Assembly: GCA_963924555.1 (NCBI GenBank)
Contig: OZ004584.1
Span: 8,377,753-8,441,752, forward strand
DNA: 64,000 nucleotides
Origin: Crambe crambe
Lineage: Eukaryota; Porifera; Demospongiae; Poecilosclerida; Crambeidae
Direction of reading: 5' to 3'
Shown here: positions 1 through 52,566 of the stretch, in pieces
Layout: each line of letters begins with the position of its first letter
Numbering within the stretch: the stretch's first letter is position 1
The notes under the pieces: model-generated
What the model was told of the DNA's origin: nothing
Seen by the model: only the letters and a program-made list of their open reading frames with translations
Databases searched by the model: none
Made by a program: the position numbers and the translations under genes

Positions 1-2349
1 CTGATTAATGAGAGGGGCAAAAGAGAGTCACTCATAATACTACCGGGCGGTCTTTATTGATTGCTGATTAATGAGAGGGGCAAAAGAGAGTCACTCATAA
101 TACTACCGGGCCGGTCTTTATTGATTGCTGATTAATGAGAGGGGCAAAAGAGAGTCACTCATAATACTACCGGGCCGGTCTTTATTGATTGCTGATTAAT
201 GAGAGGGGCAAAAGAGAGTCACTCATAATACTACCGGGCCAGTCTTTATTGATTGCTGATTAATGAGAGGGGCAAAAGAGAGTCACTCATAATACTACCG
301 GGCCGGTCTTTATTGATTGCTGATTAATGAGAGGGGCAAAAGAGAGTCACTCATAATACTACTGGGCCGGTCTTTATTGATTGTTGATTAATGAGAGGGG
401 CAAAAGAGAGTCACTCATAATACTACCAGGCCGGTCTTTATTGATTGCTGATTAATGAGAGGGGCAAAAGAGAGTCACTCATAATACTACTGGGCCGGTC
501 TTTATTGATTGCTGATTAATGAGAGGGGCAAAAGAGAGTCACTCATAATACTACTGGGCCGGTCTTTATTGATTGCTGATTAATGAGAGGGGCAAAAGAG
601 AGTCACTCATAATACTACTGGGCCGGTCTTTATTGATTGCTGATTAATGAGAGGGGCAAAAGAGAGTCACTCATAATACTACTGGGCCGGTCTTTATTGA
701 TTGCTGATTAATGAGAGGGGCAAAAGAGAGTCACTCATAATACTACTGGGCCGGTCTTTATTGATTGCTGATTAATGAGAGGGGCAAAAGAGAGTCACTC
801 ATAATACTACTGGGCCGGTCTTTATTGATTGCTGATTAATGAGAGGGGCAAAAGAGAGTCACTCATAATACTACTGGGCCGGTCTTTATTGATTGCTGAT
901 TAATGAGAGGGGCAAAAGAGAGTCACTCATAATACTACTGGGCCGGTCTTTATTGATTGCTGATTAATGAGAGGGGCAAAAGAGAGTCACTCATAATACT
1001 ACTGGGCCGGTCTTTATTGATTGCTGATTAATGAGAGGGGCAAAAGAGAGTCACTCATAATACTACTGGGCCGGTCTTTATTGATTGCTGATTAATGAGA
1101 GGGGCAAAAGAGAGTCACTCATAATACTACTGGGCCGGTCTTTATTGATTGCTGATTAATGAGAGGGGCAAAAGAGAGTCACTCATAATACTACTGGGCC
1201 GGTCTTTATTGATTGCTGATTAATGAGAGGGGCAAAAGAGAGTCACTCATAATACTACTGGGCCGGTCTTTATTGATTGCTGATTAATGAGAGGGGCAAA
1301 AGAGAGTCACTCATAATACTACTGGGCCGGTCTTTATTGATTGCTGATTAATGAGAGGGGCAAAAGAGAGTCACTCATAATACTACTGGGCCGGTCTTTA
1401 TTGATTGCTGATTAATGAGAGGGGCAAAAGAGAGTCACTCATAATACTACTGGGCCGGTCTTTATTGATTGCTGATTAATGAGAGGGGCAAAAGAGAGTC
1501 ACTCATAATACTACTGGGCCGGTCTTTATTGATTGCTGATTAATGAGAGGGGCAAAAGAGAGTCACTCATAATACTACTGGGCCGGTCTTTATTGATTGC
1601 TGATTAATGAGAGGGGCAAAAGAGAGTCACTCATAATACTACTGGGCCGGTCTTTATTGATTGCTGATTAATGAGAGGGGCAAAAGAGAGTCACTCATAA
1701 TACTACTGGGCCGGTCTTTATTGATTGCTGATTAATGAGAGGGGCAAAAGAGAGTCACTCATAATACTACTGGGCCGGTCTTTATTGATTGCTGATTAAT
1801 GAGAGGGGCAAAAGAGAGTCACTCATAATACTACTGGGCCGGTCTTTATTGATTGCTGATTAATGAGAGGGGCAAAAGAGAGTCACTCATAATACTACTG
1901 GGCCGGTCTTTATTGATTGCTGATTAATGAGAGGGGCAAAAGAGAGTCACTCATAATACTACTGGGCCGGTCTTTATTGATTGCTGATTAATGAGAGGGG
2001 CAAAAGAGAGTCACTCATAATACTACCAGGCCGGTCTTTATTGATTGCTGATTAATGAGAGGGGCAAAAGAGAGTCACTCATAATACTACTGGGCCGGTC
2101 TTTATTGATTGCTGATTAATGAGAGGGGCAAAAGAGAGTCACTCATAATACTACTGGGCCGGTCTTTATTGATTGCTGATTAATGAGAGGGGCAAAAGAG
2201 AGTCACTCATAATACTACTGGGCCGGTCTTTATTGATTGCTGATTAATGAGAGGGGCAAAAGAGAGTCACTCATAATACTACCAGGCCGGTCTTTATTGA
2301 TTGCTGATTAATGAGAGGGGCAAAAGAGAGTCACTCATAATACTACCAG
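1..2349. repeat. 64-bp tandem satellite array, about 36.7 copies
   Basis: Head-to-tail array starting at the window edge. The first unit is 63 bp (one C missing), then 35 exact 64-bp periods, then a 46-bp partial unit. Each unit starts CTGATTAATGAGAGGGGC and ends TCTTTATTGATTG. Units are almost identical. The few differences lie mainly at the CpGs of the ACCGGGCCGG block (ACTGGG, ACCAGG or GCCAG variants). The array ends 61 bp from the 3' splice donor of the last visible kinesin exon, so it sits inside a kinesin intron. It may extend past the left edge. Confidence 0.98.
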
Positions 2350-10471: not shown

Positions 10472-13400
10472 CTAGTATAACACCTTACCTCTTGGGTGTG
10501 CTGTGGCTATCCTTTTGAACATTCCTCCATCAAGCTTCCTAACACCAGCTGCTAGTTGCCTCCAACTCGGTTTGCCATATTTGGCAGTGTTGTAATTCTG
10601 ATTTAACCACTGACTAATGGTGTCGTAAAGGCACCTGCAAGAGTTACTGCGGATATCCTCAATGACACTGGTCTTCAGTCTGAGGTAAGAAGCAAGGACA
10701 TCCCAACTGGCCTTCAAGTCCTCCACTTCATCCATCACATCTGCTATGTCTTCAGGATCTATTACCAAAGTAATATTAAAGTTTGAGGGAGAATTGATGA
10801 CTCACCTAGTTCAGAATCATCTATCATTTGTTTCCACTCGGTTCCACTGACCTGATAGAAATATAATCCCTTCACTAGTAAAAATCAAATGGCAACTGAG
10901 AGATTAACTCACATGTCGTCCAGCACTTGATGGGGAAGTCCCTGATTGATTGGTTGCTGGGAGTGGAGTAACATGACAGTGGAGACCTTATGAGAAGAAA
11001 GAAGTGACATGTTGCAAGTGGACATTCGTGATGTGTGGTCATCATGACCACTTGGAGACTCACTGGATTGAGGTGCTGATTGAGGTCCTCTCATATGTCC
11101 TCCACCATCAGTGCTAGGGGAACAGTGGGTGTGGCTAGAGGTAGAAGCCTCACTCGTACTCAACGATGTCTTGGGTGTCTTGGATGTGCTGGCAACATCT
11201 GTAGGAGATATCACCACTAGATACATGCAATATCAAGGTCATCTTAATTCCTCACATTTCTTCCTCAACACTTCACAGATGGCCTCAGCAGACTGAGTGT
11301 GTCCAGCCTTCACACACACCTCCAGCAAGTTCCCATAAGTGGCTGCAAGGCCATGCCTCGCCTTCCACCTCCTCAGTGCCTCTCGTCTATTGGTCAAACA
11401 GATTGTAGTGATTCATGCTGGACTCTCAGTTGGGGGGTTGACACATGAAACCATGAAAGCCATAAAAGCTTATCATTTTGAGTGTTTGTAAAGTAATCCA
11501 AGGCTAAATGGTGAAAGTTCAATGATTTGTGGTCACAGGTGTATAGTCACTGGAGAAAGAGTGATCTTGAAGTGACAATGTGTACAAAACCAAGACCACG
11601 TTTTTGGTTGGTGGAAGGTAATAAATAGAATCCTAATAAATTAACACATTAAACCACCTCTCAAAATAGTTGCAAAAAGAGGCAATATCCAGGTCTCACC
11701 TCTGCAGTGCAGGTTCATTCTGATACTTCTTTTTGATGTCACTAATGTCAATGGCAGTTAGTCCCAGAGGAACAGAGAGCTTCTCCTCCCAGTCCAGTGA
11801 GTGGTCCGCTATCTCATTCAGGTCCCTGTCCACTCCCCCATGGCCCCAGTCCAACTGCCGCTCCAAGTAGAGGCATGCATCCACTGGGAGATGTGAGAGG
11901 TAGGATTGGTAATCTGGTCCTGTGGCATGTAGTTACAGTGTAGAGTGGATCCATGGAGGATAATGGGACTCACACTAACCTGAGGGGAGTACTGGGTCAG
12001 GTCCATTCACACCACTTCCATCTCCAGTCATGGGCTACAGTAGTACAATGAGAACTCAAGTCATGTCCATTGCATATATTAAGACACTACTCTATATAAT
12101 ACACACCATACCATATGCACACTTCAGAGCAAGGTACTTGCTACAATTTACTTACCTTTCCAAACCAAACCAAATGCTGACTTTGCATATAAACTGGATC
12201 AGGTTCTTCGGGATCTTTAAGGCAAACCATGATGTGAGGAGAAGTCTCTCCACTGTCCACAACGCACAAGTGGTCTCTTCCAGGGTGAGAGGGACACTCA
12301 AAGGAGAGTTGGTAGCTCACAGAAAAGCCATAGTTCATACGAGAGGTGACTGTCTTCAGTGTACACTCAATGATCTCTTGGATGGCACGACACACATCAT
12401 GTGTTGGGGTCATGGTGATCGGTAGTCTCTTGATGGATACCTCGTAGTACTTTGGTTGGGAGATGAGGGTGATGGTGTCGTAATCAGCTCCAAATCGAAA
12501 CTGCACTCGGTTCTTCTTGATGCCTTTTTCGATCAATTTGAGTGAGCTCTGTCCAACTAAGTTGGCAATGGTGGCAGGAAAGACCCCAAGGGGTACAAAA
12601 CCACATTCGTATCGAATCAAAAGAGAGGCAGGAAGGAGTTGGTTGGAATCAATCTTTTGAAAATCACTTAGTTCTTCACTGCTCACATTCTCAAGGACAC
12701 AGGGCATTAGGTAGACCTTTGAACTCTGTGAAGGGTCGGACTGGACTATGGGAGCTGTGATGTTGAGGTATTCCAGCAGCTTCACCAGTTGCTCCGGGGG
12801 TATATAATCTCCTGAAATATCAATAATACTTCTTTTTATATCTTCAAGGGAGAACTGTCCTGTTTTCCTAAATCTCTCAGAGGCAGCCACACCCATTCGA
12901 CCGAACTTAAAAGCATTAATGATCAGATTGGTCACACTATCGAAAACAATTTGAATGTTACAAATGACTGTTTCCTTTAACTCAGGTAGGTTGGGGAAGT
13001 ACATCAGGACTCCGGCATGGTGGTGGAGGAACCACAGAGCTGTCTTTGTATCAGCAGCTGTCATGCCAAGCCTCTCAGCAAGTTCCAGACAACTCTGCAG
13101 ACTGGCTATTCTCTTGTCTCTCTTTCGCAGGCAGAGACTCAGCATCAGCCATGCAGCTGGGATGCGAAGCTTCTTGAAGTGCTTCTGCAAACCTTTCTCC
13201 AGAAAGGTACGAATCTCTCTGACTTCATCTGCTCCACCCGTCATGTTGTTTATGGGGAGTACCATCCTGCCTTCAGAGGAAAACTGGACCAGATCGTCCC
13301 TGAAGAAATCGGTAGATCGAATCGTACGTTGCAGTTTTTGATCGAATTTGTCGATCTCCTCTTCAGACACTTTATCTTTATGTGTCCCGATTATGTATGC

Positions 13401-16400
13401 AACAGATTTGGAAGAAGAAACTAAAAGCTCGTCCAATTTGGAATCAGAGGCCCCTTCGTTACTCTCTTGTGAGCTGTACGACTTGAAGCAAGCGATACTG
13501 GATAGAGCGGAGAGAAGGACTTCTTCCACAGTATAGGTGGATTCGACCGGCAAGGTGGACTCACCTGATGGACTGAGGAAGGAGATAGTGTAACTTTTCT
13601 GGAGGTCATCGATCAACTTACAGAATAAAAGGTAAAGGGCAGGACCGATGGTGAGTGCTGGGAGCATGTCCATCAGCTCGGGATGGCCCCCTGTGTCTTC
13701 CATGTTCAGTAGTGCTGCGTCCTTGAAGAGCTGCTTCATATGACTCCAATTCTTGGCACTCATGGCATTACGGAACAAGTCAGCCATTTCCTTTACATCA
13801 GAGTGTAGAGTACTGCTATCTCGTTCAATCAGTGCAGGAGGGTCTGATAAAAAATCAGATTTTTTCTTAGAAGAAGGTACCTCTGGTGACTTAAGATTGG
13901 TGTTGGAATGTACTTCTTGAGTAGAAGGTGTTTCATCATGAATGGTGGACCCATCACTCACACTTTCTTCATTGGAGTTGATGCTGGACATTTTCTGTTG
14001 AAAAATCTGCTGATAGAAGAACTGCAGGAACATGTGTGCCTCGTCTGTGAGGTTTTCGGCCACTAACCAATCTGTTTGTGTCACCATGGCTGTAGTGCAG
14101 GAGAGGTTCCTGATGATCACTCGTCCTGACTCAACTGCACCCGTACTAGGCTGCTCTGCCTCTCCAGCTGAAGCAATGTCTGTGATCTCTCCAGTCAGGC
14201 GGCGACGGGTCGTTGTCTTTCCCAAACGAGGACCTCCAACGAAAGCCATTTTGACAAAGAGCATTTCTATGGATTCTTGTGTGGCAAGGATTTGACGGTA
14301 TGCATTCACATACTCAGATTTGCCTGAAGGGATAAGAGAGAGTTTTTATAACACAGATGTCTTATATCAGAAGAGTACAGTTCTTTTAAATAATGCACAC
14401 CTGGCTGATAACACGCTGTTACTTAATTTAGAGGGTCTGAAAGTGCCTGATTTATTCCACTATCTGAACCTTAACTTTAGGAGGTTTAGTCAACTTATCT
14501 CAAATAGCATTTTTAAAAGGGGGTGGGGTGGGGATTTGCCTCCCCTGGAACCTGCTATGTGATTTATATGGTCTAACACAGTAAAGAGTGTATTCCAAAG
14601 AGTGCATAAGTTAGCACATTAAGATAGGATATTGTCTCCCCCACAACTTTTCTAGATGAAGGTCTGGGAATTGGATGATACCTACACAATACACCTTTGC
14701 ATGAAATCTCTACTCACCAGTGAGGTAGTCCTCAATCTGCTCACTCAGTTCTTTCAGTTTAAGTTTCTTCAATACATCAAACAGAGACGTCCAGGTTGGA
14801 GAAAGACGACTCTTTCCTGGAGATTTCCATTGGCTGATCACTATTTTAACAGATTTAGCATTATCAGACAGAAGTTGACGCAGGTCAGTCCAACTCAAAT
14901 TGATTCCAGCAGCTTTTACCAGTTCAGTGTTGACCTTTGCCAGTGACGTGACCACCTGGATTCCTACTCCCTCCAGTCTAGAGAGAGCACTCATGCTGAA
15001 TTGACTCTCTGGGTTGAATGGGGTCACTAGGAATGGGATAAATTACAAAGCAGTAAAATTGGGACCTCCAGAGTATTTAAGAATTGTTGGGATGGACCAT
15101 TTTGATTTTTGATACTATTACATCATCATGACATAATCAATTATTTGGGCAGAATTCAGTAGTCACCTTTCAATGATGCCTTGAACACCCTGTTACTATA
15201 TCCAGATGCACCCCATCCCCCTAACACCACCAATTCTCCTGTGGGGAGGACAATAGTAGCAGTTCTACATAACTTTATAGGCGAATTCCCCACGTGTAAC
15301 CAGGAGAGGGTGTGGAGGGAGTAGGCACAGATCTCAGAGGAACGAGCATTACTAAGACCTCCAGTAGATATCAGCTGATTTGCAAATGATGAAGGAGAGG
15401 AATATTTGAAATGAATCTGTAACTCACTCCACAAACCACTGGAGTGTGACATTTCTTGAGTATGGTCTTCATTAAGGAGTGACTCCAACTTGCAGTGAAA
15501 TACTGAGTCACCCTGTCCATCGCCACCCATCAAATACAGTCTTCCTTTATGGAGAGTGGATTTCAAACGACTGCATGCTTTAGGTAGAGGTTGAACAGAC
15601 GACCACTCATTGTCTTTGAGTATCTCCACTGCATTCACTTCATCCTCTCCACTTGCTCTACCACCTGATACCACCAAACATTCGGGACTTCCAGTGTTCA
15701 ATGCTGATGAATAATAACGACTAGTTGGCATTGGTGGCAGTGATGGTTGCCAGTTCGTTCCTCCTTTAAGTGTCCATAGTTTATTTGTAGCCATATCAGT
15801 ATCAGGTTCCATTCCACCAACAAGCACCACCTGAGAGTGGTAGGTGGTGAGGCCATAGTAACAGGTGGGTGTGGTCACCAGTGACCATGAGTTCAAATCA
15901 GTGGAGGAGATAAACAATGAGGAATTACTTTCCCATGATGATGTGTCCCCTCCTATATATATCTTGTCCTGCAGTAGCACACATTGGGCATCATTCATAC
16001 CCACTGGTAGTGGAGTGCACTCTGCCCAGTCAAGTGAGGCTAGGGGGTGGAGGATGTCAACCTGTAGAGGTATAGTAGAGAATACCGTATGGGTAGATAT
16101 TTTCGAGGAATTAAAATTTCATGAATATCAGTACCAAGCTAGATTATAGGATTTTAACTTCGCTTCGCATGCACTGCAATATATCGCTCGTGCGCAGTTT
16201 AAAGCATATGTGGTGCACCAGTGATCGTGAGCAGCTGGAAGGATGACCAGTTTTAGTTACCCTTCAATGGTTAGGGAATTTCACGTCTATTCATATAGCG
16301 AAGTTCTGAAGCGAAGATGTAGAGAGCCATCTGGAAAGATCGAGGTCAAGTACTCCGTAATGACTAATTGATAGGTTATTGAATGTTTAAAATTTCGTGA

Positions 16401-23504: not shown

Positions 23505-26500
23505 TCAGTAAACTAGATAGTATAACACCTTACCTCTTGGGTGTGCTGTGGCTATCCTTTTGAACATTCCTCCATCAAGCTTCCTAACACCAGCTGCTAG
23601 TTGCCTCCAACTCGGTTTGCCATATTTGGCAGTGTTGTAGTTCTGCTTCAACCACTCGGTAATGACGTCGAACAGGCACCTGCTACAATTTCCAGAGTTA
23701 TTCCTGCGGATGACCTCAATGGCACTGGTCTTCAGTCTGAGGTAAGTAGCAAGGGTGTCCCAACTGGCCGCCAAGTCCTCCACTTCATCCATCACATCTG
23801 CTATGTCTTCAGGATCTATTATCAATGCAACATTGACTCATTGTAAGTTTGAGGGAGATCAGATGACTCACCTAGTTCAGAATCATCTATCGTTTCAAGA
23901 ACTTGTTTCCACTCGGTTGCTGGGAGTGGAGTAACATGGGAGTGGAGACCTAGAAATAATTAAGAATGAAATTATGTTGCAAGGAGACAAGGAATTGTTT
24001 GCACTACCAGTACTGACCAGACTGAGGTGAGACAGGTCCACTTGTACTCTCTCCACTACTATCAGTCAGAGGCTACAATGAAATAAGATATGCAATATGT
24101 TTACCAGTTATAACACGAGACTCATTATGAATATTATAAAGTCAGATTATCTTGGTCACTTTAGACTATATATCATGTTCACTAAGGTTCTCTACTCTAT
24201 ATAATGCACACCAAATCCTTACGTCACGACTTCAGGGCAAGGTACTTGCTACAATTTACTTACCTTTCCAAACCAAACCAAATGCTGACTTTGCATATAA
24301 ACTGGATCAGGTTCTTCGGGATTCTTGAGGCAGTCCATGATGTGAGGAGAAGTCTCTTCACTGTCAACAACGCACAAGTGGTCTCTTCCAGGGTGGGAGG
24401 GACATTCAAAGGAGAGTTGGTAGCTCACAGAAAAGGCATAGTTCATATGAGAGGTGACTGTCTTCAGTGTATGCTCAATGATCTCTCTGATGGCATGACA
24501 CACCTCGTGTGTTGGGGTCTTGGTGATCGGTAGTCTCTTGATGGATACCTCGTAGTACTTTGGTTGGGAGATGAGGGTGATGGTGTCACGATCAGCTCCG
24601 AATCGAAACTGCACTCGGTTCTTCTTGATGCCTTTTTCGATCAATTTGAGTGAGCTCTGTCCAACTAAGTTGGCAATGGTGGCAGGAAAGACCCCAAGGG
24701 GTACAAAACCACATTCGTATCGAATCAAAAGAGAGGCAGGAAGGAGTTGGTTGGAATCAAATTTTCGAAAGTCATTCAGTTCTTCACTGCTCACATTCTC
24801 AAGGACACAGGGCATCAGGTAGACCTTTGAACTCTGTGAAGGGTCAGACTGGACTATGGGAGCTATGATGTTGAGGTATTCCAGCAGCTTCACCAGTTGG
24901 CCCAGGGGTATATAATCTCCTGAAATACCAATAATACTTCCTCTGATATCTTCCAGGGAGAACTGTCCTGTTTTCCTAAACCTCTCAGAGGCAGCCACGC
25001 CCATTCGACCGAACTTAAAAGCATTGATGATCAGATTGGTCACGCTATCAAAAACAATTTGAATGTTACAAATGACTGTTTCTTTTAACTCAGGTAGGTT
25101 GGGGAAGTACATCAGGACTCCGGCATGGTGGTGGAGGAACCACAGAGCTGTCTTTGTATCAGCAGCTGTCATGCCTAGCCTCTCAGCAAGTTGCAGGCAA
25201 CTCTGCAGACTGGATATTCTCTTGTCTCTCTTTCGCAGGCAGAGACTCAGCATCAGCCATGCAGCTGGGATGCGAAGCTTCTTGAAGTGCTTCTGCAAAC
25301 CTTTCTGGAGAAAGGTACGAATCTCTCTGATTTCGTCTGCTCCCCCCATCATGTTGTCTATGGGGAGTACCATCCTGCCTTCAGAGGAAAATTGGACCAG
25401 ATCGTCCCTGAAGAAATCGGTAGATCGAATCGTACGTTGTAATTTTTCATCAAATTCGTCGATCTCCTCTTCAGACACTTTATCTTTATGTGTCCCGATT
25501 ATGTATGCAACAGATTTAGAAGAAGCTAAAAGCTCGTCCAATTTGGAATCAGAGGCCCCTTCGTTACTCTCTTGTGAGCTGTATGACTTGAAGCAAGCAA
25601 TACTGGATAGAACTGAGAGAAGGACTTCTTCCACAGTATAGGTGGACTCGACTGGCAAGGTGGACTCACCTGATGGACTGAGGAAGGAGATAGTGTAACT
25701 TTTCTGGAGGTCATCGATCAACTTACAAAATAAAAGGTAAGGACCGATGGCGAGTGCTGGGAGCATGTCCATCAGCTCGGGATGGCCCCCTGTGTCTTCC
25801 ATGTTCAGTAGTGCTGCATCCTTGAAGAGCTGCTTCATATGACTCCAATTCTTGGCACTCATGGCACTACGGAACAAGTCGGCCATTTCCTCCACGTCAG
25901 AGAGTAGAGTACCACTACCTCTAAGTCTTTCCATCAGTGGTGGAGGGTTGGATAAATGATTAGACTTTTTCTCAGAAGAAGGTACCTCTGGTGACTTAAG
26001 ATTGGTGTTGGAAAGTTCGGTCCTATGTATTTCTTGAGTAGAAGGTGTTTCATCATGAATGGTGGACCCATCACTCACACTTTCTTCATTGGAGTTGATA
26101 CTGGACGTTTTCTGTTGAAATATCTGCTGATAGAAGAACTGCAGGAACATGTGTGCCTCGTCTGTGAGGTTTTCAGCTGCTAACCAATCTGTTTGTGTCA
26201 CCATGGCTGTAGTGCAGGAGAGGTTCCTGATGATCACTCGTCCTGACTCAACTGCACCCGTACTAGGCTGCTCTGCCTCTCCAGCTGAAGCGATGTCTGT
26301 GATCTCTCCAGTCAGGCGGCGACGGGTCGTTGTCTTTCCCAAACGAGGACCTCCAACGAAAGCCATTTTGACAAAGAGCATTTCTATGGATTCTTGTGTA
26401 GCAAGGATTCGGCGGTATGCATTCAAGCAGTCAGTTTTGCCTGAGGGGATAAGAGAAATACATTCTAAAACAGATGTGCTACAGCTCGAATGAGAAGAGT

Positions 26501-28222
26501 ACTTTGAAGCAGTATTCTAAATAATGCACATCTGGCAGTGGGGGTGGGTGGGCCAGGGGGATTTACTTTCTCCCTTACTAGAACTTTGCCTCTCCATGGG
26601 ACCTTGCTGTGTAGAGTGTATTCCAAAGGGTCGAGGTAAGAGATATTGTTTTCTAGATGAAGGTCTGGGAATTGGATGATACTTTGTATGGAATCTCTAC
26701 TCACCAGTGAGGTAGTCTTCAATCTGCACACTCAGTTCAATCAGTTCAAGTTTCTTCAATACATTAAAGAGAGAAGTCCAGGTTGGAGGAAGACGACTCT
26801 TTCCTGGAGATTTCCATTGGCTGATCACAATTTCAACAGCTTTAGAACTATCAGACGGAAGTTGATGCCAGACAGTCCTGATCCCAGCAGCTTGTATCAG
26901 TTTAGTGTGGACCTTTGCCAGTGACGTGACCACCTGGATTCCTACTCCCTCCAGTCTAGAGAGAGCACTCATGCTGAATCGACTCTCGGGGTTGAATGGG
27001 GTCACTGGGAATGGGATAAATCATAAATCAGTTAAATTGGGACCTCCAGAGTATTTAAGAATTGTTGGGATAGACCATTTTGATCTTGTGATACTATTAC
27101 ATCATCATGACATAATCAATTATTTGGACAGAATTCAGTAGTCACCTTTCAATGATGCCTTGAACACCCTGTTACTCTTTCTAGATACACCCCATCCCCC
27201 TAACACCACCAATTCTCCTGTGGGGAGGACAATAGTAGCAGTTCTACGTGACTTTATAGGCACATTCCCCACATGTAACCAGGAGAGGGTGTGGGGGGAG
27301 TAGGCACAGATCTCAGAGGAATGGACACCACTAAGCCATCCTCCAGTAGATATCAGCTGATTTGCAAATGATGAAGGAGAGGAAAGTTCTAGATGAGTCT
27401 GTAACTCACTCCACAAACCACTGGAGTGCGACATTTCTTGAGTATAGTTTTCATTAAGGAGTGACTCCAACTTGCAGTGAAATACTGAGGGACCCTGTTC
27501 ATAGCCACCCATCAAATACAGTCTTCCTTTATGGAGAGTGGATTTCAAACAACTGCATGTTTTAGGTAGAGGTTGAACAGACAACCACTCATTGTCTTTG
27601 AGTATCTCCACTACATTCATAAAACCCCCTTTAAAACCACCTGATACCACCAAACATTCGGGACTTCCAGTGTTCAATGCTGATGAATAAAGACGACTAG
27701 TTGGCATTGGTGGCAGTGATGGTTCCCAGTTCGTTCCTCCTTTAAGTGTCCATAGTTTATTTGTAGCCATATGAGTATCAGGTTCCTCTCCACCAACAAG
27801 TACCACCTGAGAGTGGTAGGTGGTGAGGCCATAAAAACGGGTGGGTGTGGTCACTTGTGACCATGAGTTCAAATCAGTGGAGGAGATAAACAGTGGGGCT
27901 TCACTTTCCCATGATGATGTGATCCCTCCTACATATATCTGGTCCTGCAGTAGCACACATTGGGCATCACACATACCCACTTGTATTCGAGTGCACTTCA
28001 CTGGTAGTGGAGTGCACTCTGCCCAGTCAAGTGAGGCTAGGGGGTGGAGGATGTCAACCTGTAGAGGTATAGTAGAGAATAGTTACCTTGCGCACATACA
28101 CAACAGGGGGTCGTCTTTGACATAATGGAGGGACAGAATAGAAGGCCTGCACATGGAGGTGTGTCACATAAAAGGGGCGTGGTTGTCTGCCATCTTAGAG
28201 AGCAGAGAATGTATAGACTCAT
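23505..28222 (-). CDS. Gene B: Kelch-Death-ROCO-Death protein lacking the first C-terminal Death domain, about 1,315 aa
   Basis: Exons: 28087-28222 (or from ATG 28123), 27146-28036, 26705-27004, 24264-26440, 24018-24072, 23872-23949, 23505-23815. All phases agree with no stop. Six Kelch repeats, a Death-like domain, then Roc-COR with GGPRLGKT, DTGGHPE and THKDKV. The post-COR linker (LTDSSGESTSGPVSPQSG) differs from the other copies. The Death domain that follows it in genes A, C and D is deleted. A new 78-bp exon joins the linker to the last Death domain (DPEDIADVMDEVEDL to ATAHPRG). That exon includes bases that are intronic in the other copies. The loss of one death fold suggests altered partner binding. 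It lies downstream of dynamitin pseudogene 2 in convergent orientation. Confidence 0.82.
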
Positions 28223-35850: not shown

Positions 35851-38800
35851 TCATGGTTGCTGCATGCAGGAGACAGACATCAGTAATACCCAGTAAACTA
35901 GATAGTATAACACCTTACCTCTTGGGTGTGCTGTGGCTATCCTTTTGAACATTCCTCCATCAAGCTTCCTAACACCAGCTGCTAGTTGCCTCCAACTTGG
36001 TTTGCCATATTTGGCAGTGTTGTAATTCTGGTTTAACCATTGACTAATGGTGTTTAAAAGACAACGGAACCTGTCGGAGTTATTCCTGCGGATGTCCTCA
36101 ATGACACTGGTCTTCAGTCTAAGGTAAATAGCAAGGTCATCCCAACTGGCCGCCAAGTCCTCCACTTCATCCATCACATCTGCTGTGTCTTCAGGATCTA
36201 TTTATCAATGCAACATTGACTCATTGTAAGTTTGAGGGGGTTCTGATGACTCACCTAGTTCAGAATCATCTATCATTTCAAGAACTTGTTTCCACTCAGT
36301 TCCACTGACCTGATAGAAATATAATCCCTTCACTAGTAAAAATCAAAGGGCAACTGAGAGATTAACTCACATGTCGTCCAGCACTTGATGGGGAAGTCCC
36401 TAATTGATTGGTTACTGGGAGTGGAGTAAAAAGACAGTGGAGACCTTATGAGAAGAAAGAAGTGACATGTCACATTGGACATTCATGATGTGTGGTCATC
36501 ATGACCACTTACCGGATTGATGTGCTGATTGAGGTACTCTCATATGTCCTCCACCATCAGTACTAGGGGAACAGTGGGTGTTGCTAGAGGTAGAAGCCTC
36601 ACTTGTAATCAAAGATGTCTTGGGTGTCTTGGACGTGCTGGCAACATCTGTAGGAGATGATCACCACTAGATACATGCAATATCAAGGTCATCTTAATTC
36701 CTCACATTTCTTCCTCAACACTTCACAGATGGCCTCAGCAGACTGAGTGTGTCCAGCCTTCACACACACCTCCAGCAAGTTCCCATAGGTGGCTGCAAGA
36801 CCATGCCTCTCCTTCCACCTCTTCAGTGCCTCTCGTCTATAGGTCAAAGAGATCAGTTATTCACACTGGACTCTCAGTTAGAGGGGATGACACATGAAAC
36901 CATGAAAGCCAAAAAAAAAGAAAAAAGAGAGTATTATTTCAAGTGTTTGACTTGAGGTCACACTAAGTACATGTGAAGTACAAAAACAAGACCACATTTT
37001 TTGGTTGGTGGGAGGGAATAAATAGAATCCTAATAAATACACAAATTAAACCTCCTCTCAAAATAGTTGATCCCCACCCCTAAAAGAGGCAATACCCAGG
37101 TCTCACCTCTGCAGTGCAGGTTCATTCTGATACTTCTTCTTGATGTCGCTAATGTCAGTGGCAGTCAGTCCCAGAGGAACAGAGAGCTTCTCCTCCCAGT
37201 CCAGTGAGTGGTCTGATATCTCATTCAGGTCCCTGTCCACTCCCCCATGGCCCCAGTCCAACTGCCACTCCAAGTGGGGGCGTGCATCCACTGGGAGACG
37301 TGAGAGGTAGGATTGGTAATCTGGTCCTGTGGCATGTAGTTACAGTGTAGAGTGGATCCATGGAGGACAACGGGACTCACACTAACCTGAGGGGAGTACT
37401 GGGTCAGGTCCATTCACACCACTTCCATCTCCAGTCATGGGCTACAGTAGTACAATGTGAACTAAAGTCATGCACATTGCATATATTAAGGGACATTAAT
37501 ACACTACTCTATATAATGCACACCATACCATATGCGCACTTCAGGGCAAGGTACTTGCTACAATTTACTTACCTTTCCAAACCAAACCAAATGCTGACTT
37601 TGCATATAAACTGGATCAGGTTCTTCGGGATTCTTGAGGCAGTCCATTATGTGAGGAGAAGTCTCTCCACTGTCAACAACGCACAAGTGGTCTCTTCCAG
37701 GGTGAGAGGGACATTCAAAGGAGAGTTGGTAGCTCACAGAAAAGGCATAGTTCATATGAGAGGTGACTGTCTTCAGTGTATGCTCAATGATCTCTCTGAT
37801 GGCATGACACACCTCGTGTGTTGGGGTCTTGGTGATCGGTAGTCTCTTGATGGATACCTCGTAGTACTTTGGTTGGGAGATGAGGGTGATGGTGTCACGA
37901 TCAGCTCCGAATCGAAACTGCACTCGGTTCTTCTTGATGCCTTCCTTGATCAACTTGAGTTTGTGTGAGCTCTGCCCAACTAAGTTTGCAATCGTGGCAG
38001 GAAAGACCCCAAGGGGTACAAAACCACATTCGTATCGAATCAAGAGAGAGGCAGGAAGGAGTTGGTTGGAACCACTCTTTTGAAAGTCACACAGTTCTTC
38101 ATTGCTCACATTCTCAAGGACACAGGGCATTAGGTAGATCTTTGAACTCTGTGAAGGACTGGGATCAGACTGGACTATGGGAGCTATGATGTTGAGGTAT
38201 TCCAACAGCTTCACCAGTTGCTCCAGGGGTATGTAATCTCCTGAAATACCGACAATACTTCTTCTGATGTCCTCCAGGGAGAACTGTCCCGTTTTCCTAA
38301 ACTTCTCAGAGGCAGCAACACCCATTCGACCGAACTTAAATGCATTGATGATCAGATTGGTCACACTATCGAAAACAATTTGAATGTTACAAATAACTGT
38401 TTCCTTTAACTCAGGTAGGTTGGGGAAGTACATCAGGACTCCGGCATGGTGGTGGAGGAACCACAGAGCTGTCTTTGTATCAGCAGCTGTCATGCCAAGC
38501 CTCTCAGCAAGTTGCAGGCAACTCTGCAGACTGGCTATTCTCTTGTCTCTCTTTCGCAGGCAGAGACTCAGCATCAGCCATGCAGCTGGGATGCGAAGTT
38601 TCCTAAAGTGCTTCTGCAAACCTTTCTCCAGAAAGGTACGAATCTCTCTGACTTCATCTGCTCCCCCCGTCAAGTTGTTTATGGGGAGTACCATCCTGCC
38701 TTCAGAGGAAAATTGGACCAGATCGTCCCTGAAGAAATCGGTAGATCGAATTATACGTTGCAGTTTTTGATCGAATTTGTTGATCTCCTCTTCAGACACT

Positions 38801-41565
38801 CTATCTTTATGTGTCCCGATTATGTATGCAACAGATTTGGAAGAAGAAGCTAAAAGCTCGTCCAATTTGGAATCAGAGGCTCCTTCGTTACTCTCTTGTG
38901 AGCTGTACGACTTGAAGCAAGCAATACTGGATAGAGCTGAGAGAAGGACTTCTTCCACAGTATAGGTGGACTCGACCGGCAAGGTGGACTCACCCGATGG
39001 ACTGAGGAAGGAGATAGTGTAACTTTTCTGGAGGTCATCGATCAACTTACAAAATAAAAGGTAAAGGGCAGGACTGATGGTGAGTGCTGGGAGCATGTCC
39101 ATCAGCTCGGGATGGCCCCCTGTGTCTTCCATGTTCAGTAGTGCTGCATCTTTGAAGAGCTGCTTCATATGACTCCAATTCTTGGCACTCAAGGCATTAC
39201 GAAACAAGTCAGCCATTTCCTTTACATCAGGGTGTAGAGTACTGCTATCTCGTTCAATCAGTGCAGGAGGGTCAGATAAAAAATCATTCTCTGGTGACTT
39301 AAGATTGGTATAGGAAAGCTTGGTCCTATGCATTTCTTGAGTAGAAGGTATTTCATCATGAATGGTGGACCCATCACTCACACTTTCTTCATTGGAGTTG
39401 ATACTGGATGTTTTCTGTTGAAAAATCTTCTCATAGAAGTACTGCAGGAACATGTGTGCCTCGTCCGTGAGGTTTTCAGCTGCTAACCAATCTGTTCGTG
39501 TCACCATGGCTGTAGTGCAGGAGAGGTTCCTGATGATCACTCGTCCTGACTCAACTGCACCCGTACTAGGCTGCTCTGCCTCTCCAGCTGAAGTGATGTC
39601 TGTGATCTCTCCAGTCAGGCGGCGACGGGTCGTTGTCTTTCCCAAACGAGGACCTCCAACGAAAGCCATTTTGACAAAGAGCATTTCTATGGATTCTTGT
39701 GTGGCAAGGATTCGGCGGTACACATTCAAATACTCAGATTTGCCTGAAGGGATAAGAGAGAGTTCAGTTTCTAATACGGATGTCTTATATGAGAAGAGTA
39801 CAGTTCTTTTAAATAATGCACACCTGGCTGATCACGCACTGTAACAGTTACGAATTTAGAGGGTCTGAAAGTGCCTAATTTATTCCACTATCTGAACCTT
39901 AACTTTAGGAGGTTTAGTCAACTTATCTCAAATAGCATTTTTAAAAGGGGGTGGGGGTGGGGATTTGCCTCCCCTGGAACCTGCTATGTGATTTATATGG
40001 TCTAACACAGTAAAGAGTGTATTCCAAAGAGTGCATAAGTTAGCACATTAAGATAGGATATTGTCTCCCCCACAATCTTTCTAGATGAAGGTCTGGGAAT
40101 TGGATGATACCTACACAATACACCTTTGTATGAAATCTCCACTCACCAGAGAGGTAGTCCTCAATCTGCACTCTCAGTTCATTCAGTTCAAGTTTCTTCA
40201 ATACATCAAACAGAGACATCCAGGTTGGAGGAAGACGACTCTTTCCTGGAGATTTCCATTGGCTGATAACTATTTCAACAGATTTAACAGGATCAGACAG
40301 AAGTTGACCCTGTCGCAGGTCAATCCAACTCAAATTGATTCCAGCAGCTTTTACCAGTTCAGTGTGGACCTTTGCCAGTGATGTGACCACCTGGATTTCT
40401 ACTCCCTCCAGTCTAGAGAGAGCACTCATGCTGAATTGACTCTCGGGGTTGAATGGGGTCACTGGGAATGGGATAAATTGCAAAGCAGTTAAATTGGGAC
40501 CTCCAGAGTATTTAAGAATTGTTGGGATGGACCATTTTGATCTTGTGATACTATTACATCATCATGACATAATCAATTATTTGGGCAGAATTCAGTAGTT
40601 ACCTTTCAATGATGCCTTGAACACCCTGTTACTCCATCTAGATGCACCCCATCCCCCTAACACCACCAATTCTCCTGTGGGGAGGACAATAGTAGCAGTC
40701 CTACTTAACCCTATAGGCAAATTCCCAACATGTAACCAGGAGAGGGTGTGGGAGGAGTAGGCACAGATCTCAGAGTAAGGATTATTACTAATATCTCCTC
40801 CAATAGATATCAGCTGATTTGCAAATGATGAAGGAGAGAAACGTTCGAGATGAATCTGTAACTCACTCCACAAATCACTGGAGTGTGACATTTCTTGATT
40901 ATGGTCTTCATTAAGGAGTGACTCCAACTTGCAGTGAAATCCTGAGGGACCCGGTCTACAGCCACCCATCAAATACAGTCTTCCTTTATGGAGAGTGGAT
41001 TTCAAACGACTGCATGCTATAGGTAGAGGTTGAACAGACGACCACTCATTGTCTTTGAGTATCTCCACTACATTCACTCTTCCTCCTTTATCTGTACCAC
41101 CTGATACCACCAAACATTCGGGACTTCCAGTGTTCAATGCTGATGATGAATCACGACTAGTTGGCATTGGTGGCAGTGATGGTTGCCAGTTCGTTCCTCC
41201 TTTAAGTGTCCATAGTTTATTTGTAGTCATATAAGTATCAGGTTCCTCTCCACCAACAAGCACCACCTGAGAGTGGTAGGTGGTGAGGCCATAATAACGG
41301 GTGGGTGTGGTCACTTGTGACCATGAGTTCAAATCAGTGGAGGAGATAAACAGTGAGGCATCACTTTCCATTGATGATGTGTACCCTCCTCCAAAATATA
41401 TCTTGTCCTGCAGTAGCACACATTGGGCATCAAACATACCCATTGGTAGTGGAGTGCACTCTGTCCAGTCAAGTGAGGCTAGGGGGTGGAGGATGCCAAC
41501 CTGTAGAGGTATAGTAGAGAATAGTTACCTTGCACACATGCACAACAGGGGGTCATCTTTGACAT
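35851..41565 (-). CDS. Gene C: Kelch-Death-ROCO-Death-Death protein, about 1,461 aa
   Basis: Exons: 41529-41565, 40603-41478, 40147-40461, 37573-39743, 37387-37441, 37107-37326, 36706-36836, 36513-36647, 36371-36414, 36255-36309, 35851-36197. Phases agree throughout and no stop interrupts the frame. Same order as gene A: six Kelch diglycines, Death-like domain, Roc-COR (GGPRLGKT, DTGGHPE, THKDRV), first Death domain, S/T-rich tail, last Death domain. Kelch loops after the diglycines differ from the other copies (for example GGGYTSSMESDAS and GGTDKGGRVN). The Ser-rich insert in the GTPase is shorter than in gene B. The C terminus runs 25 codons past HPRG before a stop because the donor-like GTAAGG is read through. 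It has no dynamitin copy beside it. Confidence 0.84.
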
Positions 41566-47172: not shown

Positions 47173-50100
47173 CTAGTATAACACCTTACCTCTTGGGTGT
47201 GCTGTGGCTATCCTTTTGAACATTCCTCCATCAAGCTTCCTAACACCAGCTGCTAGTTGCCTCCAACTCGGTTTGCCATATTTGGCAGTATTGTAGTTCT
47301 GATTTAACCACTGACTAATGGTGTCGTAAAGGCACCTGCAAGAGTTACTGCGGATATCCTCAATGACACTGGTCCTCAGTCTGAGGTAAGAAGCAAGGAC
47401 ATCCCAACTGGCCGCCAAGTCCTCCACTTCATCCATCACATCTGCTATGTCTTCAGGATCTATTATCAATGCAATATTAATGACTCATTGTAAGTTTGAG
47501 GGAGATCTGATGACTCACCTAGTTCAGAATCATCTATCATTTCAAGAACTTGTTTCCACTCAGTTTCACTGGCCTGATAGAAATATAATCCCTTCACTGG
47601 TGAAAATCAAATGGCAACTGAGAGATTAACTCACATGTTGTCCAGCACTTGATGGGGAAGTCCCTGATTGATTAGTTGCTGGGAGTGGAGTAACATGACA
47701 GTGGAGACCTTATGAGAAGAAAGAAGTAACATGTTGCAAGTAGATATTCATGATGTGTGGTTACCATGAACACTACTTAGAGACTCACTGGATTGAGGTG
47801 CTGATCTTCGCATATGTCCTGGACTGTCAGTGCTAGGTGGATAGTGGGTATGGCTAGAGGTAGAAGTCTCACTCGTACTCAAAGATGTCTTGGACGTGCT
47901 GGCAACATCTATAGGAGATGATCACCACTAGATACATGCAATATCAAGGTCATCTTAATTCCTCACATTTCTTCCTCAACACTTCACAGATAACCTCAGC
48001 AGACTGAGTGTGTCCAGCCTTCACACACACCTCCAGCAAGTTCCCATAAGTGGCTGCAAGACCATGCCTCTCCTTCCACCTCCTCAGTGCCTCTCGTCTA
48101 TTGGTCAAAGAGATTTAGTGATTCATGCTGGACTCTCAGTTAGAGGGGGAGATTTGCCCTCATGCAAGTGGAGGGGATGTTAAATGGTATTCTTATTTCT
48201 CGGGTGAAAAACTTTGGGAGGATATCTCTTCCCCCACCATATGAACCACTTCAAATGAGAACACTCACCTCTGCAGTTGAGGTTTATTCTGATGCATGGT
48301 CTTGATGTCACTAATGTCAGTGGTAGTCAGTCCCAAAGGAACAGAGAGCTTCTCCTCCCAGTCCAGTGAGTGGTCCGCTATCTCATTCAGGTCCCTGTCC
48401 ACTCCCCCATGGCCCCAGTCCAACTGCCGCTCCAAGTGGGGGCGTGCATCCACTGGGAGATGTGAGAGGTAGGATTGGTAATCTGGTCCTGTGGCATGTA
48501 GTTACAGTGTAGAGTGGATCCATGGAGGACAATGGGACTCACACTAACCTGAGGGGAGAACTGGGTCAGGTCCATTCACACCACTTCCATCTCCAGTCAT
48601 GGGCTACAGTAGTACAATGAGATGAATAAGTGATACAATATGATCAAGCACTTACCTCTCCAAACCACACTAAGTGCTTCTCTTTCATTTCCACGGGCTG
48701 GGGATCTTTCATGTCCAACAGACAGTGCATTAGGTGAGGAGAGGTCTCCCCGCTCTTCACGATGCACAGATGGTCCATCTCAGGGTGAGTGGGACACTTG
48801 AAGGACACGTTGTGCTCCATGCAAGAAGCATAGTTTGTTCTTGAGATGACCGTTTGAAGAGAAGACTCTACGATCTTTCGTACTTTGACACAAACCTCGT
48901 GCAGTGGGGTCTTAGCACTCGAAAGTCGAGTGATTCGTACCTCGTAGTATTTAGGTCGGGAAATGAGGGTGACCACATCAGCATCACATTCATAACGAAA
49001 CTGGACTCGATTCTTCTTGATTCCTCGTTGGATCAAGGTAAGTGAGCTGTGACCGACGAGGTTGGCTGTTGCAGCTGGGAAGATGCCAAGTGGTACAAAA
49101 CCACACTTGTATCGGATCAGGACAGAAGCTGACAAGAGAGGGTTTGAGTCATGTCCTTGCAATGTGTCCAGTTCTTTACTTGTTGCATTCTGAAGGACAC
49201 AAGGCATTAGATAAGTGACCTCTGAACTCTTGTTAGACAAGGTCTGAGAAGAATTGCTGGGATGGGACTGAGTAATGGAAGCTATGATGTTGAGGTGTTC
49301 CAGCAGCTTCACCAGTTGCTCCAGGGGTATGTAGTCTCCTGAAACACCATCGAGACTTCTTCTGATGTTCTCCAGGGAGAACTGTCCCGTTTCCTTGAAT
49401 CTCTCAGAGGCAGCTATGCCCATTCGACCGAACTTAAATGCATTGATGATCAGATTGGTCACGCTATCGAAAACAATTTGAATGTTACAAATGACTGTTT
49501 CCTTTAACTCAGGTAGGTTGGGGAAGTACATCAGGACTCCGGCATGGTGGTGGAGGAACCACAGAGCTGTCTTTGTATCAGCAGCTGTCATGCCTAGCCT
49601 CTCAGCAAGTTGCAGGCAACTCTGCAGACTGGCTATTCTCTTGTCCCTCTTTCGCAGGCAGAGACTCAGCATCAGCCATGCAGCTGGGATGCGAAGCTTC
49701 TTGAAGTGCTTCTGCAAACCTTTCTCCAGAAAGGTACGAATATCTCTGACTTCATCTGCTCCCCCTGTCATGTTGTCTATGGGGAGTACCATCCTGCCTT
49801 CTGAGGAGAACTGGACCAGATCGTCCCTGAAGAAATCGGTAGATCGAATCGTATGTTGTAATTTTTGATCTAATTTGTCGATCTCCTCTTCAGACACTTT
49901 ATCTTTATGTGTCCCGATTATGTATGCAACAGATTTGGAAGAAGAAGCTAAAAGCTCGTCCAATTTGGAATCAGAGGCTCCTTCGTTACTCTCTTGTGAG
50001 CTGTACGACTTGAAGCAAGCAATACTGGCTAGAACTGAGAGAAGGACTTCTTCCACAGTATAGGTGGACTTGACCGGCAAGGTGGACTCGCCTGATGGAC

Positions 50101-52566
50101 TGACGAAGGAGATAGTGTAACTTTTCTTGAGGTCATCAATCAACTTACAAAATAAAAGGTAAAGGCCAGGACCGATGGTGAGTGCTGGGAGCATGTCCAT
50201 CAGCTCGGGATGACCCCCTGTGTCTTCCATGTTAAGTAGTGCTGCGTCTTTGAAGAGCTGCTTCATATGACTCCATTTTTTGGCACTCATGGCATTACGG
50301 AACAAGTCAGCCATTTCATCCACGTCAGAGAGTAGAGTACCACTACCTCTAGGTCTTACCATTGGTGGAGCAGGGTCGGATAAAAGTTCAAACTTTATCT
50401 CAGAAGTAGGTACCTCTGGTGACTTAAGATTGGTGTTAGAAAGCTTGGTCCTATGTACTTCTTGAGTAGAAGGTGTTCCATCATGAATGGTGGACCCATC
50501 ACTCACACTTTCTTCATTGGAGTTGATGCTGGACGTTTTCTGTTCAAAAATCTGCTGATAGAAGTACTGCAGGAACATGTGTGCCTCATCTGTGAGGTTT
50601 TCGGCTGCTAACCAATCTGTTCGTGTCACCATGGCTGCAGTGCAGGAGAGGTTCCTGATGATCACTCGTCCTGACTCAACTGCACCCGTACTAGGCTGCT
50701 CTGGCTCTCCAGCTGAAGCGATGTCTGTGATCTCTCCAGTCAGGCGGCGTCGGGTCGTTGTCTTTCCCAAACGAGGACCTCCAACGAAAGCCATTTTGAC
50801 AAAGAGCATTTCTATGGATTCTTGTGTGGCAAGAATTCGGCGGTACGCATTCAAATATTCAGATTTGCCTGAGAGGATAAGAGAGTTCAGTTTCTAACAA
50901 AGACTCAAACATAGTAGCTATTCCAAAAAGACTAAATTTTTTTGAGGATGGTGTATAAGCTACCACATAGAGATAGGATATTGTCTCCCCCACGACTTTT
51001 CTAGATGAAGGTCTGGGAATTGGATGATACCTACACAATACACCTTTGTGTGAAATCTCTACTCACCAGAGAGGTAGTCCTCAATCTGCACACTCAGTTC
51101 TTTCAGTTCAAGTTTCTTCAATACATCGAACAGTGACGTCCAGGTTGGAGGAAGACGACTCTTTCCTGGAGATTCCCACTGGCTGATAACACCTTCAACA
51201 GCTTTAGCACGATCAGACGGAAGTTGATGCCAGATAGTCTCATTCGAAGTAATTCCAACTGCTCTTATCAATTCAGTGTGGACCTTTGCCAGTGACGTGA
51301 CCACCTGGATTCCTACTCCCTCCAGTCTAGAGAGAGCACTCATGCTGAAGTGACTCTCGGGGTTGAATGGGGTCACTGGGAATGGGATAAATTACAAAGC
51401 AGTTAAATTGGGACCTCCAGAGTATTTAAGAATTGTTGGGATGGACCATTTTGATCTTGTGATACTATTACATCATCATGACATAATCAATTATTTGGGC
51501 AGAATTCAGTAGTCACCTTTCAATGATACCTTGAACACCCTGTTAATCAATCCACCTCTCATTCCCCCTAACACGGCCAATTCTCCTTTGGGGAGGACAA
51601 TAGTAGCAGTGCTACTCAACTCTATAGGCAAATTCCCAATATGTAACCAGGAGAGGGTGTGGGGGGAGTAGACATAGATCTCAGAGGAAGAGCCAGTACT
51701 AAACAATCCTCCAGTAGATATCAGCTGATTTGCAAATGATGAAGGAGAGGAACGTTTGAGATGGATCTGTAACTCACTCCACAAACCACTGGAGTGTGAC
51801 ATTTCTTCTTCATTAAGGAGTGACTCCAACTTGCAGTGAAACACTGAGCGACCCTGTTCATAGCCACCCATCAAATACAGTCTTCCTTTATGGAGAGTGG
51901 ATTTCAAATGACTGCATGCTTTAGGTAGAGGTTGAACAGACGACCACTCATTGTCTTTGAGTATCTCCACTACATTCAAACAAGACCCTATATTTGCTTC
52001 ACCACCTGATACCACCAAACATTCGGGACTTCCAGTGTTCAATGCTGATGAATAATAACGACTAGTTGGCATTGGTGGCAGTGATGGTTGCCAGTTCGTT
52101 CCTCCTTTAAGTGTCCATAGTTTATTTGTAGTCATACGAGTATCAAGTTCTATTCCACCAACAAGCACCACCTGAGAGTGGTAGGTGGTGAGGCCATAAT
52201 AACGGGTGGGTGTGGTCACTTGTGACCATGAGTTCAAATCAGTGGAGGAGATAAACAGTGAGGCATCACTTTCCCATGATGGTGTGTACCCTCCTATATA
52301 TATCTTGTCCTGCAGTAGCACACATTGGGCATCATACATATCCACTGGTAGTCGAGTGCACTCTGCCCAGTCAAGTGAGGCTAGGGGGTGGAGGATGTTA
52401 ACCTGTAGAGGTATAGTAGAGAATAGTTACCTTGCACACATGCACAACAGGGGGTCGTCTTTGATATAATGGAAGGACAGAATAGAGGGCCTGCACATGG
52501 AGGTGTGTCACATAAAAGGGGTGTGGTTGTCTGCCATCTTAGACAGCAGAGAATGTATAGACTCAT
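47173..52566 (-). CDS. Gene D: Kelch-Death-ROCO-Death-Death protein with a divergent COR end, about 1,477 aa
   Basis: Exons: 52431-52566, 51517-52380, 51067-51375, 48656-50868, 48549-48603, 48269-48488, 47967-48097, 47789-47908, 47635-47678, 47519-47573, 47173-47459. Frames and phases are intact. The start used by genes A and C is ATA here, so translation must begin at the in-frame ATG 52566 or further in. Order of domains as in gene A. The GTPase half (GGPRLGKT, DTGGHPE, THKDKV) is near-identical to A-C, but the last 210 or so codons of the Roc-COR exon (about 48656-49290) are strongly diverged (for example YKCGFVPLGIFPAATANLVG). The following Death domains are again near-identical, so the gene is a mosaic. 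Convergent with dynamitin pseudogene 3. Confidence 0.84.

Follow-up and report, generated by a model that had tools for sequence, protein, structure and literature searches.

In the fungus Podospora anserina, the NWD/HNWD genes (het-d, het-e and het-r) are described as NACHT-WD40 allorecognition receptors whose repeats each carry four selected codons, two in the d-a loop (7 and 9) and two in the b-c turn (25 and 27), and which undergo concerted evolution between loci (passages of PMC1805685 and PMC2873952). Brown-algal LRR-ROCO genes carry shuffled, positively selected leucine-rich repeat (LRR) exons of 72 bp ahead of Roc-COR (part of PMC11378527), and marine invertebrates have expanded sets of proteins that join Death-like and TRADD-N domains to propellers, with TRADD-N proteins greatly expanded in the sponge Amphimedon (part of PMC8195603). 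For Kelch propellers, it has been reported that the KEAP1 substrate pocket is built by the DA and BC loops (excerpts of PMC4668279), and that a DAPK1 peptide contacts every DA loop of KLHL20 and all but one of its six BC loops (excerpts of PMC6720452). The present work concerns a tandem array of Kelch genes in the sponge Crambe crambe, represented by four genes, A to D, on the minus strand of a stretch of 64,000 nucleotides (positions 8,377,753 to 8,441,752 of contig OZ004584.1, assembly GCA_963924555.1), which is referred to below as “the window”. These are probably intracellular receptor genes in which one face of a Kelch propeller is being diversified, and which would work in the manner of the NOD-like receptors (NLRs). 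All counts derive from this one assembly, and the comparisons are between paralogues within a single genome.

Each of the four genes contains a Kelch exon (A, 15167..16061; B, 27146..28058; C, 40603..41500; D, 51517..52402; window coordinates, minus strand) that encodes one whole six-bladed propeller. By eye, the exons have an AG acceptor at the start and an AAAG/GTRACT donor at the end (AAAG/GTGACT in gene A, the slash marking the border). The alignment contains six blades, in each of which strand B terminates in a diglycine, and the N-terminal LDWAECTPLP contributes strand D of blade 6. That the exons encode a Kelch beta-propeller is agreed by three comparisons: in Pfam, gene A matches Kelch_6 (E 1e-13) and the KLHDC2/KLHL20/DRC7 domain (55.8 bits, cut-off 50); a profile search of PDB with an alignment of 28 paralogues returns designed Kelch proteins, KLHL12, KBTBD10 and KEAP1; and a Foldseek search with the gene A model returns KEAP1 (E 1e-10, template modelling score about 0.5 over 205 columns). 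The AlphaFold model made from the four window sequences is of moderate confidence, with a mean predicted local distance difference test (pLDDT) of 60.8.

When the window Kelch sequence was searched at the protein level against the sponge's genome (119 contigs, 143 Mb), 125 matches had an E value no higher than 1e-10. The family set analysed here is the best 30 of the 125, which are 78-100% identical to A; the exon is open in all 30, and the 31st match (71% identical, two stops) was left out. The contig that holds the window is called C6, and 24 of the 30 lie on it in a single array at 8.39-8.68 Mb, window included; the remaining six comprise four at C6:3.16-3.30 Mb, a single one at C6:8.17 Mb and another on contig C12. 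The mitochondrial COI contig of the assembly requires TGA to be translated as tryptophan, which, together with the presence of Death, ZU5 and Roc-COR-like sequences, accords with a sponge. Among the C6 members, L036 is identical to L035 and was dropped, so that 29 distinct exons are compared. L032, which has one synonymous difference from L031, was also dropped in the blade-wise, gap-free, base-position, recombination and face comparisons, and L037 and L038 in the tree-free pairwise, flank, intron, gap-free, base-position, recombination and type-exchange comparisons.

The codon analysis, which used a script written for this work, with the FastTree tree held fixed, rather than PAML or HyPhy, strongly favours a model with positive selection (M2a) over one without it (M1a): for the 29 distinct paralogues, twice the log-likelihood difference (2dlnL) is 892, and 14% of sites are assigned a ratio of nonsynonymous to synonymous change (omega) of about 9. 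The first-pass annotation had described the window exons as near-identical paralogues that vary after each diglycine, a description borne out by this likelihood ratio and by the 83-86% identity of the B, C and D proteins to A. The selection is confined to the loops that join strands B and C (BC) and those that join strand D to strand A of the next blade (DA). Sites over 0.95 in the codon mixture model occupy 25 of 45 BC columns and 11 of 32 DA columns, compared to 1 of 177 strand columns and none of the 15 AB or 28 CD columns, so that 36 of the 37 selected sites are in BC or DA loops; the expectation that omega would exceed 1 nowhere but in the loops of a single face thus essentially holds. 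Nor is the ratio even along the exon, the outcome that had been named as contrary to a recognition face: among the 29 exons, the ratio of nonsynonymous to synonymous differences per site (pN/pS) is 2.74 in BC loops and 2.18 in DA loops; the AB loops have 0.49, the CD loops 0.86 and the strands 0.44, and pN exceeds pS in every one of the six BC and six DA loops. For the four window genes alone, pN and pS are 0.348 and 0.106 in BC loops, 0.169 and 0.088 in DA loops, and 0.026 and 0.039 in the strands.

On the combined evidence of pN/pS by region and the codon model, all six BC loops of gene A are hypervariable (minus strand; loops 1 to 6 at 15921..15947, 15786..15812, 15636..15659, 15507..15521, 15339..15356 and 15195..15215). 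The DA loops contain three hypervariable codons in loop 6-1 (15990..16004), one each in loops 1-2 (15852..15866), 2-3 (15708..15725) and 3-4 (15567..15581), two in loop 4-5 (15393..15407) and three in loop 5-6 (15261..15278). The variable sequences that had been quoted for blades 1, 3, 5 and 6 are found at the positions given for them, on the minus strand, and the placing of variation after the diglycine is correct; the list was incomplete in that blades 2 and 4 and the six DA loops vary as well. The loops were delimited on gene A, not blind to the alignment, and the independent check is a recount with DSSP that covers blades 1-4 only. In this recount, selected residues make up 15 of 41 in BC loops, 4 of 36 in DA loops, none of 11 in AB loops and none of 10 in CD loops; 19 of the 23 selected sites are therefore in BC or DA loops, and none falls among the 21 loop residues of the opposite face.

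Strand topology and the moderate-confidence model support the view that the variable BC and DA loops together form the face that would bind a substrate. The 37-site faces are all different among 28 genes, with a median of 27 differences, and they are richer in Arg, Asp, Tyr and Ala than the rest of the exon. The earlier proposal of a diversified recognition face on a fixed scaffold is thus upheld as far as the distribution of change is concerned, since the BC and DA loops are selected while the strands and the AB and CD loops are constrained.

Before such a signal can be attributed to selection, it must be separated from effects that could imitate it. One such effect is the inflation of omega by recombination or misalignment. 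The exons do recombine strongly (in the pairwise homoplasy index (PHI) test, 0 of 300 permutations were as low as the observed value), 27 of 55 BC columns contain gaps, and the test is also significant for the Roc-COR-like exon described below, but blade-wise trees, gap-free columns and tree-free counts all concur, and an artefact is accordingly a very improbable source of the signal. Trees built separately for each blade (28 genes), which exchange between blades cannot mislead, are each significant (2dlnL 76-122) and place 39 of 41 selected sites in BC or DA loops. When only columns without a gap and without a gapped neighbour are retained (26 genes, 249 columns), all 18 selected sites are in these loops, pN and pS being 0.258 and 0.040 in BC loops and 0.205 and 0.102 in DA loops, with a strand pS of 0.055. 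Pairwise counts that use no tree (27 genes) give a pN of 0.263 and a pS of 0.101 for the loops and 0.029 and 0.056 for the rest of the exon. Nine null simulations under M1a, which contain no recombination, never exceed a 2dlnL of 2.7; one of them listed 73 sites over 0.95 at a likelihood ratio of 0.4, and site lists are for this reason trusted only where the test is significant. The other potential imitator is a mutational hotspot or relaxed constraint, by which the loops would simply mutate faster or tolerate more change. Synonymous change is indeed somewhat raised in the loops over all columns (pS about 1.8 times higher in BC and DA loops, and 0.154 at the selected codons of the blade-wise analysis), but it is not raised in the gap-free BC columns; the synonymous clustering that had been named as a contrary outcome is mild at most, the gap-free DA value being the highest. 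Moreover, pN in the loops, and still more at the selected codons (0.450), is far above the mean difference of the intron that follows the Kelch exon (0.026) and of the 500-bp 3' flank (0.087; 27 genes), so relaxation alone is insufficient. In this flank, the intron takes up about 141 bp and the next open frame, which differs by 0.099, about 350 bp; the intron mean is from the 24 of 27 genes in which the acceptor pattern was caught, and leaves out three in which the acceptor, then TGACTCC, is visible. In one pair, L013 and L014, 4 of 141 intron bases differ while the loops have 50 nonsynonymous and 3 synonymous differences. Selected codons differ at base 1 in 49%, at base 2 in 45% and at base 3 in 20% of pairs, with the third base fixed in many of them, a pattern which points to selection on amino acids rather than undirected hypermutation. 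None of the 43 AB and CD columns is selected. There is scarcely any likelihood, then, that a hotspot or relaxation explains the data. Adenine-directed mutagenesis like that of diversity-generating retroelements was also considered and rejected: some selected sites have an invariant A as third base, while A, C, G and T all occur at the first two positions. As a separate observation, the intron of the C6 genes has diverged less than the Kelch scaffold has at synonymous sites (about 0.055), and less than the next open frame; the intron may hold a conserved element or be a hot tract for conversion.

Recombination also shapes the repertoire of faces. BC-loop distances are at most weakly correlated between blades (r -0.08 to 0.37), which implies that the loops have been combined almost independently. 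Entire Kelch exons are exchanged as well. Two types of gene can be told apart by the Roc half of the exon downstream (52-55% identical between types, with a COR end that is 72-83% identical), and pS in the Kelch framework is 0.051 and 0.060 within the types and 0.055 between them. The Kelch tree requires 8 changes of type compared to 9.2 when types are shuffled, with 299 of 1000 shuffles at or below the observed value (27 genes). The Kelch exons are thus mixed across the two Roc types and move between genes. In L031 and L032, the Kelch exon and 3' flank are nearly without difference while the 5' flanks have sharply diverged, a pattern that reads as the footprint of conversion or of a segmental copy. 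Along the COR-B end of the Roc-COR-like exons (columns 480-725), pS climbs from 0.03 to above 0.3 toward the 3' end and nonsynonymous change rises too, which suggests a conversion gradient along the gene.

Loop diversification is repeated in four other Kelch families of the genome, those on C13, C12, C3 and C14; except in C14, whose sites were placed by eye, the loop labels were transferred from gene A through an alignment in which identity is about 30%. The family on contig C13 (17 of 20 fetched exons, the more divergent L063-L065 being left out, and L062 and L066 lying outside the 2.19-2.45 Mb array) gives a 2dlnL of 354 with all 22 selected sites in BC or DA loops; the C12 family (16 exons) gives 247 with 17 of 19, and the C3 family (12 exons, with members scattered over 4.6-7.2 Mb) gives 60 with 6 of 6. 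In the C9 family, for which only pairwise counts from four exons are available, pN/pS is 1.40 in BC loops and 0.94 in DA loops. An array at C14:4.1-4.4 Mb (L099-L106, 7 distinct of 8) has a different arrangement of Kelch repeats and a 2dlnL of 84. Its changes cluster at PPPWxYxG, at MKKxxCSM and right after GG; of 8 sites over 0.9, by eye, 4 are DA-like (PPPWxYx, MKKxx), 1 follows GG, 2 are in other loops and 1 is in a strand. It is an even chance that the Kelch propeller serves in this sponge as a general scaffold for variable faces, with at least five diversified families, that its exons swap as cassettes between two old Roc-COR/Death backbones, and that this exchange yields an extensive repertoire of intracellular sensors that is encoded in the germline and recombines. 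Cassettes may also be exchanged in somatic cells. A Death domain at C12:733794-733997 (+), about 1.6 kb upstream of a Kelch exon of the C12 family on the same strand, was noted separately; this family may have a Death-Kelch architecture of its own.

Downstream of the Kelch exon, genes A to D each have an open frame of 734-757 amino acids that resembles a Roc-COR GTPase (A, 12144..14345; B, 24252..26516; C, 37561..39831; D, 48647..50893; all minus strand); a fifth such exon, with a type-2 Roc, belongs to the next gene of the array (61710..63998, minus strand), whose Kelch exon (L014) is just outside the window. P-loop, DTGG and THKD motifs are recognizable by eye (in gene A, P-loop GGPRLGKTTTRR, DTGG and GTHKD), the gene A exon scores 27.1 bits with Pfam COR-A (cut-off 35.3), and a homologue at C1:5302152, 61% identical, passes that cut-off with 36.0 bits. 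The exon is constrained (pN/pS 0.34 in 8 exons, L046 not among them). Between Kelch and Roc in gene C lies a linker open frame, X (40043..40558, minus strand), which the Kelch donor (phase 1) joins in frame at an AG acceptor identified by eye; X resembles a death fold by eye only, and no Pfam family matches it above chance. Death domains follow at the C-terminal end (minus strand), where Pfam Death (PF00531, cut-off 22.6 bits) scores 25.9 in the second half of the first domain of gene A (11242..11412), 22.6 in its second domain (10475..10801), 26.1 in the second half of the first domain of gene C (36692..36856) and 23.1 in the second domain of gene D (47176..47484). These are the four window places at or over the cut-off; three are below it, namely the second domain of gene C (35854-36201, 16.6 bits), 59965-60261 and 60760-61005. 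The three presumed first halves scanned (11699-11932, 61183-61485 and 58249-58779) have no match, and the Death exons of gene B were outside the scan. In gene C, mean hydropathy over 19 residues peaks at 1.33 in Kelch, at 0.82 in X and at 1.72 in the Roc-COR-like exon, where the maximum sits inside the presumed GTPase core; the customary threshold for a membrane segment is 1.6. From this profile, there is no obvious membrane segment between Kelch and GTPase in gene C. Pfam finds neither NACHT nor LRR in the exons scanned, those upstream of Kelch not having been scanned. On this exon content, the family is not a metazoan NLR by definition (NACHT plus LRR), a Roc-COR-like exon occupying that place.

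The mechanism that we propose for the receptor would operate as follows. A single transcript would span the Kelch, Roc-COR-like and Death exons and yield a presumably cytosolic protein with an N-terminal six-bladed propeller, a death-like linker, a Roc-COR-type GTPase and C-terminal Death domains, in which the propeller would stand in for the LRRs of an NLR. Its top face, consisting of the six BC and six DA loops, would bind a fast-changing target, presumably a protein; this face is under strong diversifying selection while the remainder of the propeller is kept fixed. Occupation of the face by the target would release the GTPase module, which could then dimerize or oligomerize and nucleate an assembly of Death domains, with a cell-death or inflammatory output. 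New faces would be generated by tandem duplication, by point substitution under selection and by the exchange of Kelch exons or blades between genes. The architecture and the analogies discussed below suggest an immune or allorecognition role, and we would favour immunity over other kinds of arms race.

Several observations weigh against this reading. The Kelch model is weakest from residue 210 on; pN is slightly above a near-zero pS in the short constrained segments AB4-AB6, CD2, D6, C3, A4 and A5; in the AB and CD loops of the four window genes, pN is 0.040 and pS 0.021, with only 3 synonymous differences; and, in the DSSP recount, four selected residues fall among the 78 of the strands, two of them where A1 begins and two in B1. 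Mean pN/pS is below 1 in the DA loops of the C12 (0.65) and C9 (0.94) families and in the C3 family (BC 0.71, DA 0.79), with synonymous sites near saturation in the case of C12 DA and C3. The GTPase assignment encounters further difficulties, since COR-A scores of 25.0-28.9 bits are below the cut-off in all four window exons scanned (of five present), the Pfam scan of these exons yields no Roc family match, a PDB profile search with the Roc-COR alignment has 0 matches at E 0.01, NCBIfam matches are only far below cut-off, and the AlphaFold model from the five window sequences has a pLDDT of only 30.9. The Roc-COR-like exon also gives an M2a 2dlnL of 30.9, with 5 of 699 sites, toward its variable 3' end, and recombination can thus account for part of the likelihood signal.

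Two further explanations accept the selection but assign it another cause. The same receptors could be directed at conspecifics, mediating tissue fusion and rejection rather than the recognition of microbes or viruses, in which case alleles should be extremely polymorphic too. The Podospora NACHT-WD40 genes, whose selected loops are the same, do serve allorecognition (in the passages cited), and the near absence of linkage between loops is in keeping with such a role. However, dozens of copies in several families fit many targets better than one polymorphic locus, and a cytosolic architecture would be unusual for recognition by tissue contact, so this alternative is rather unlikely. It is more doubtful still that the Kelch face has nothing to do with defence and instead recruits fast-evolving internal partners, such as selfish elements, or partner proteins under regulated turnover, as with Kelch E3 adaptors. 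Excerpts of PMC4668279 and PMC6720452 describe BTB-Kelch ligases that recruit degrons with the same face, but no BTB, BACK or F-box domain was found in the scanned Kelch, linker, Roc-COR, Death and ZU5 pieces (exons upstream of Kelch were not scanned), and what follows the propeller here is Roc-COR-like and Death. Intracellular sensors in a molecular arms race remain the preferred reading of these genes, whose face-confined change resembles that of receptors that distinguish self from non-self.

Other features were noted in the genome and the window. COR-A (Roc-COR) genes are hugely expanded, with 339 candidates, of which 150 were scored and 149 were over the cut-off, at C1 8.1-9.4 Mb, C11 7.1-7.3 Mb, C5 5.8-6.3 Mb, C3 7.5-7.8 Mb and C8; many are, by eye, away from the Kelch families, and other sensor domains may be attached to them. 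Window positions 1-2349 are an array, about 2.3 kb long, of a tandem repeat with a 64-bp unit, with self-matches 98-99% identical, and 33402-33995 (+) is an open frame of low-complexity, tandem PIDPPPL-type heptad repeats that is probably no gene. Between gene D and the next gene, 57755-59755 contains a ZU5 exon (59213-59755) and Death-like pieces, which would be either a surplus fragment or a ZU5-Death gene that has entered the array. Long open frames at 11979-12425, 37351-37842 and 61497-61922 (+), which overlap the COR end of Roc-COR exons or run antisense to it, are probably a by-product of codon usage.

These genes constitute a candidate class of recognition receptors in an early-branching animal, combining Kelch propellers with a Roc-COR-like GTPase and Death domains, and the list of about 37 residues, together with a natural shuffled panel of 28 faces, makes questions about sponge recognition testable. 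Among the best-ranked matches in the open-licence PMC literature, diversifying Kelch-Roc-COR-Death receptors are not described for sponges, nor is there a paper in which Kelch faces diversify as they do here. As a variable scaffold, the Kelch propeller may be likened to the complementarity-determining loops of antibodies and to the LRRs of lampreys.

The family can be compared with several known systems. KEAP1 and KLHL20, so far as the excerpted accounts describe them, share with it the six-bladed Kelch and the substrate face of BC and DA loops and differ in their BTB/CUL3 context; such BTB-Kelch adaptors are not known to form diversifying tandem families. DAPK1 is a ROCO kinase in which Roc-COR is likewise followed by a C-terminal Death domain; its N-terminal part consists of a kinase and ankyrin repeats, and it is single copy. 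The NLR-like and TRADD-N proteins of sponges and other marine invertebrates resemble the window family in their large lineage-specific expansions and in joining Death-like domains to NTPases and repeats, WD40 propellers included, but they are based, in the parts cited, on NACHT or TRADD-N (PMC12909245, PMC8195603); “kelch” is absent from the main text of both papers. The closest analogues are the brown-algal LRR-ROCO and Podospora NACHT-WD40 genes. The algal genes, as partly set out in their source, are proposed immune receptors that share a ROC-COR GTPase, a shuffled, exon-encoded recognition domain and diversifying selection on one face, but that domain is made of LRR exons, whereas the window family has a Kelch exon and no LRR match in the exons scanned. 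The Podospora genes, in the passages available, share a beta-propeller sensor on an NTPase, the same two selected loops, exchange between loci and a family within one genome. They are fungal, combine WD40 with NACHT, have near-identical repeats within a gene and are without a Death domain, whereas the window family is animal, combines Kelch with a weak COR-A match, has six unlike blades and exchanges sequence between genes; the resemblance is a convergence that extends down to the same two loops of the propeller.

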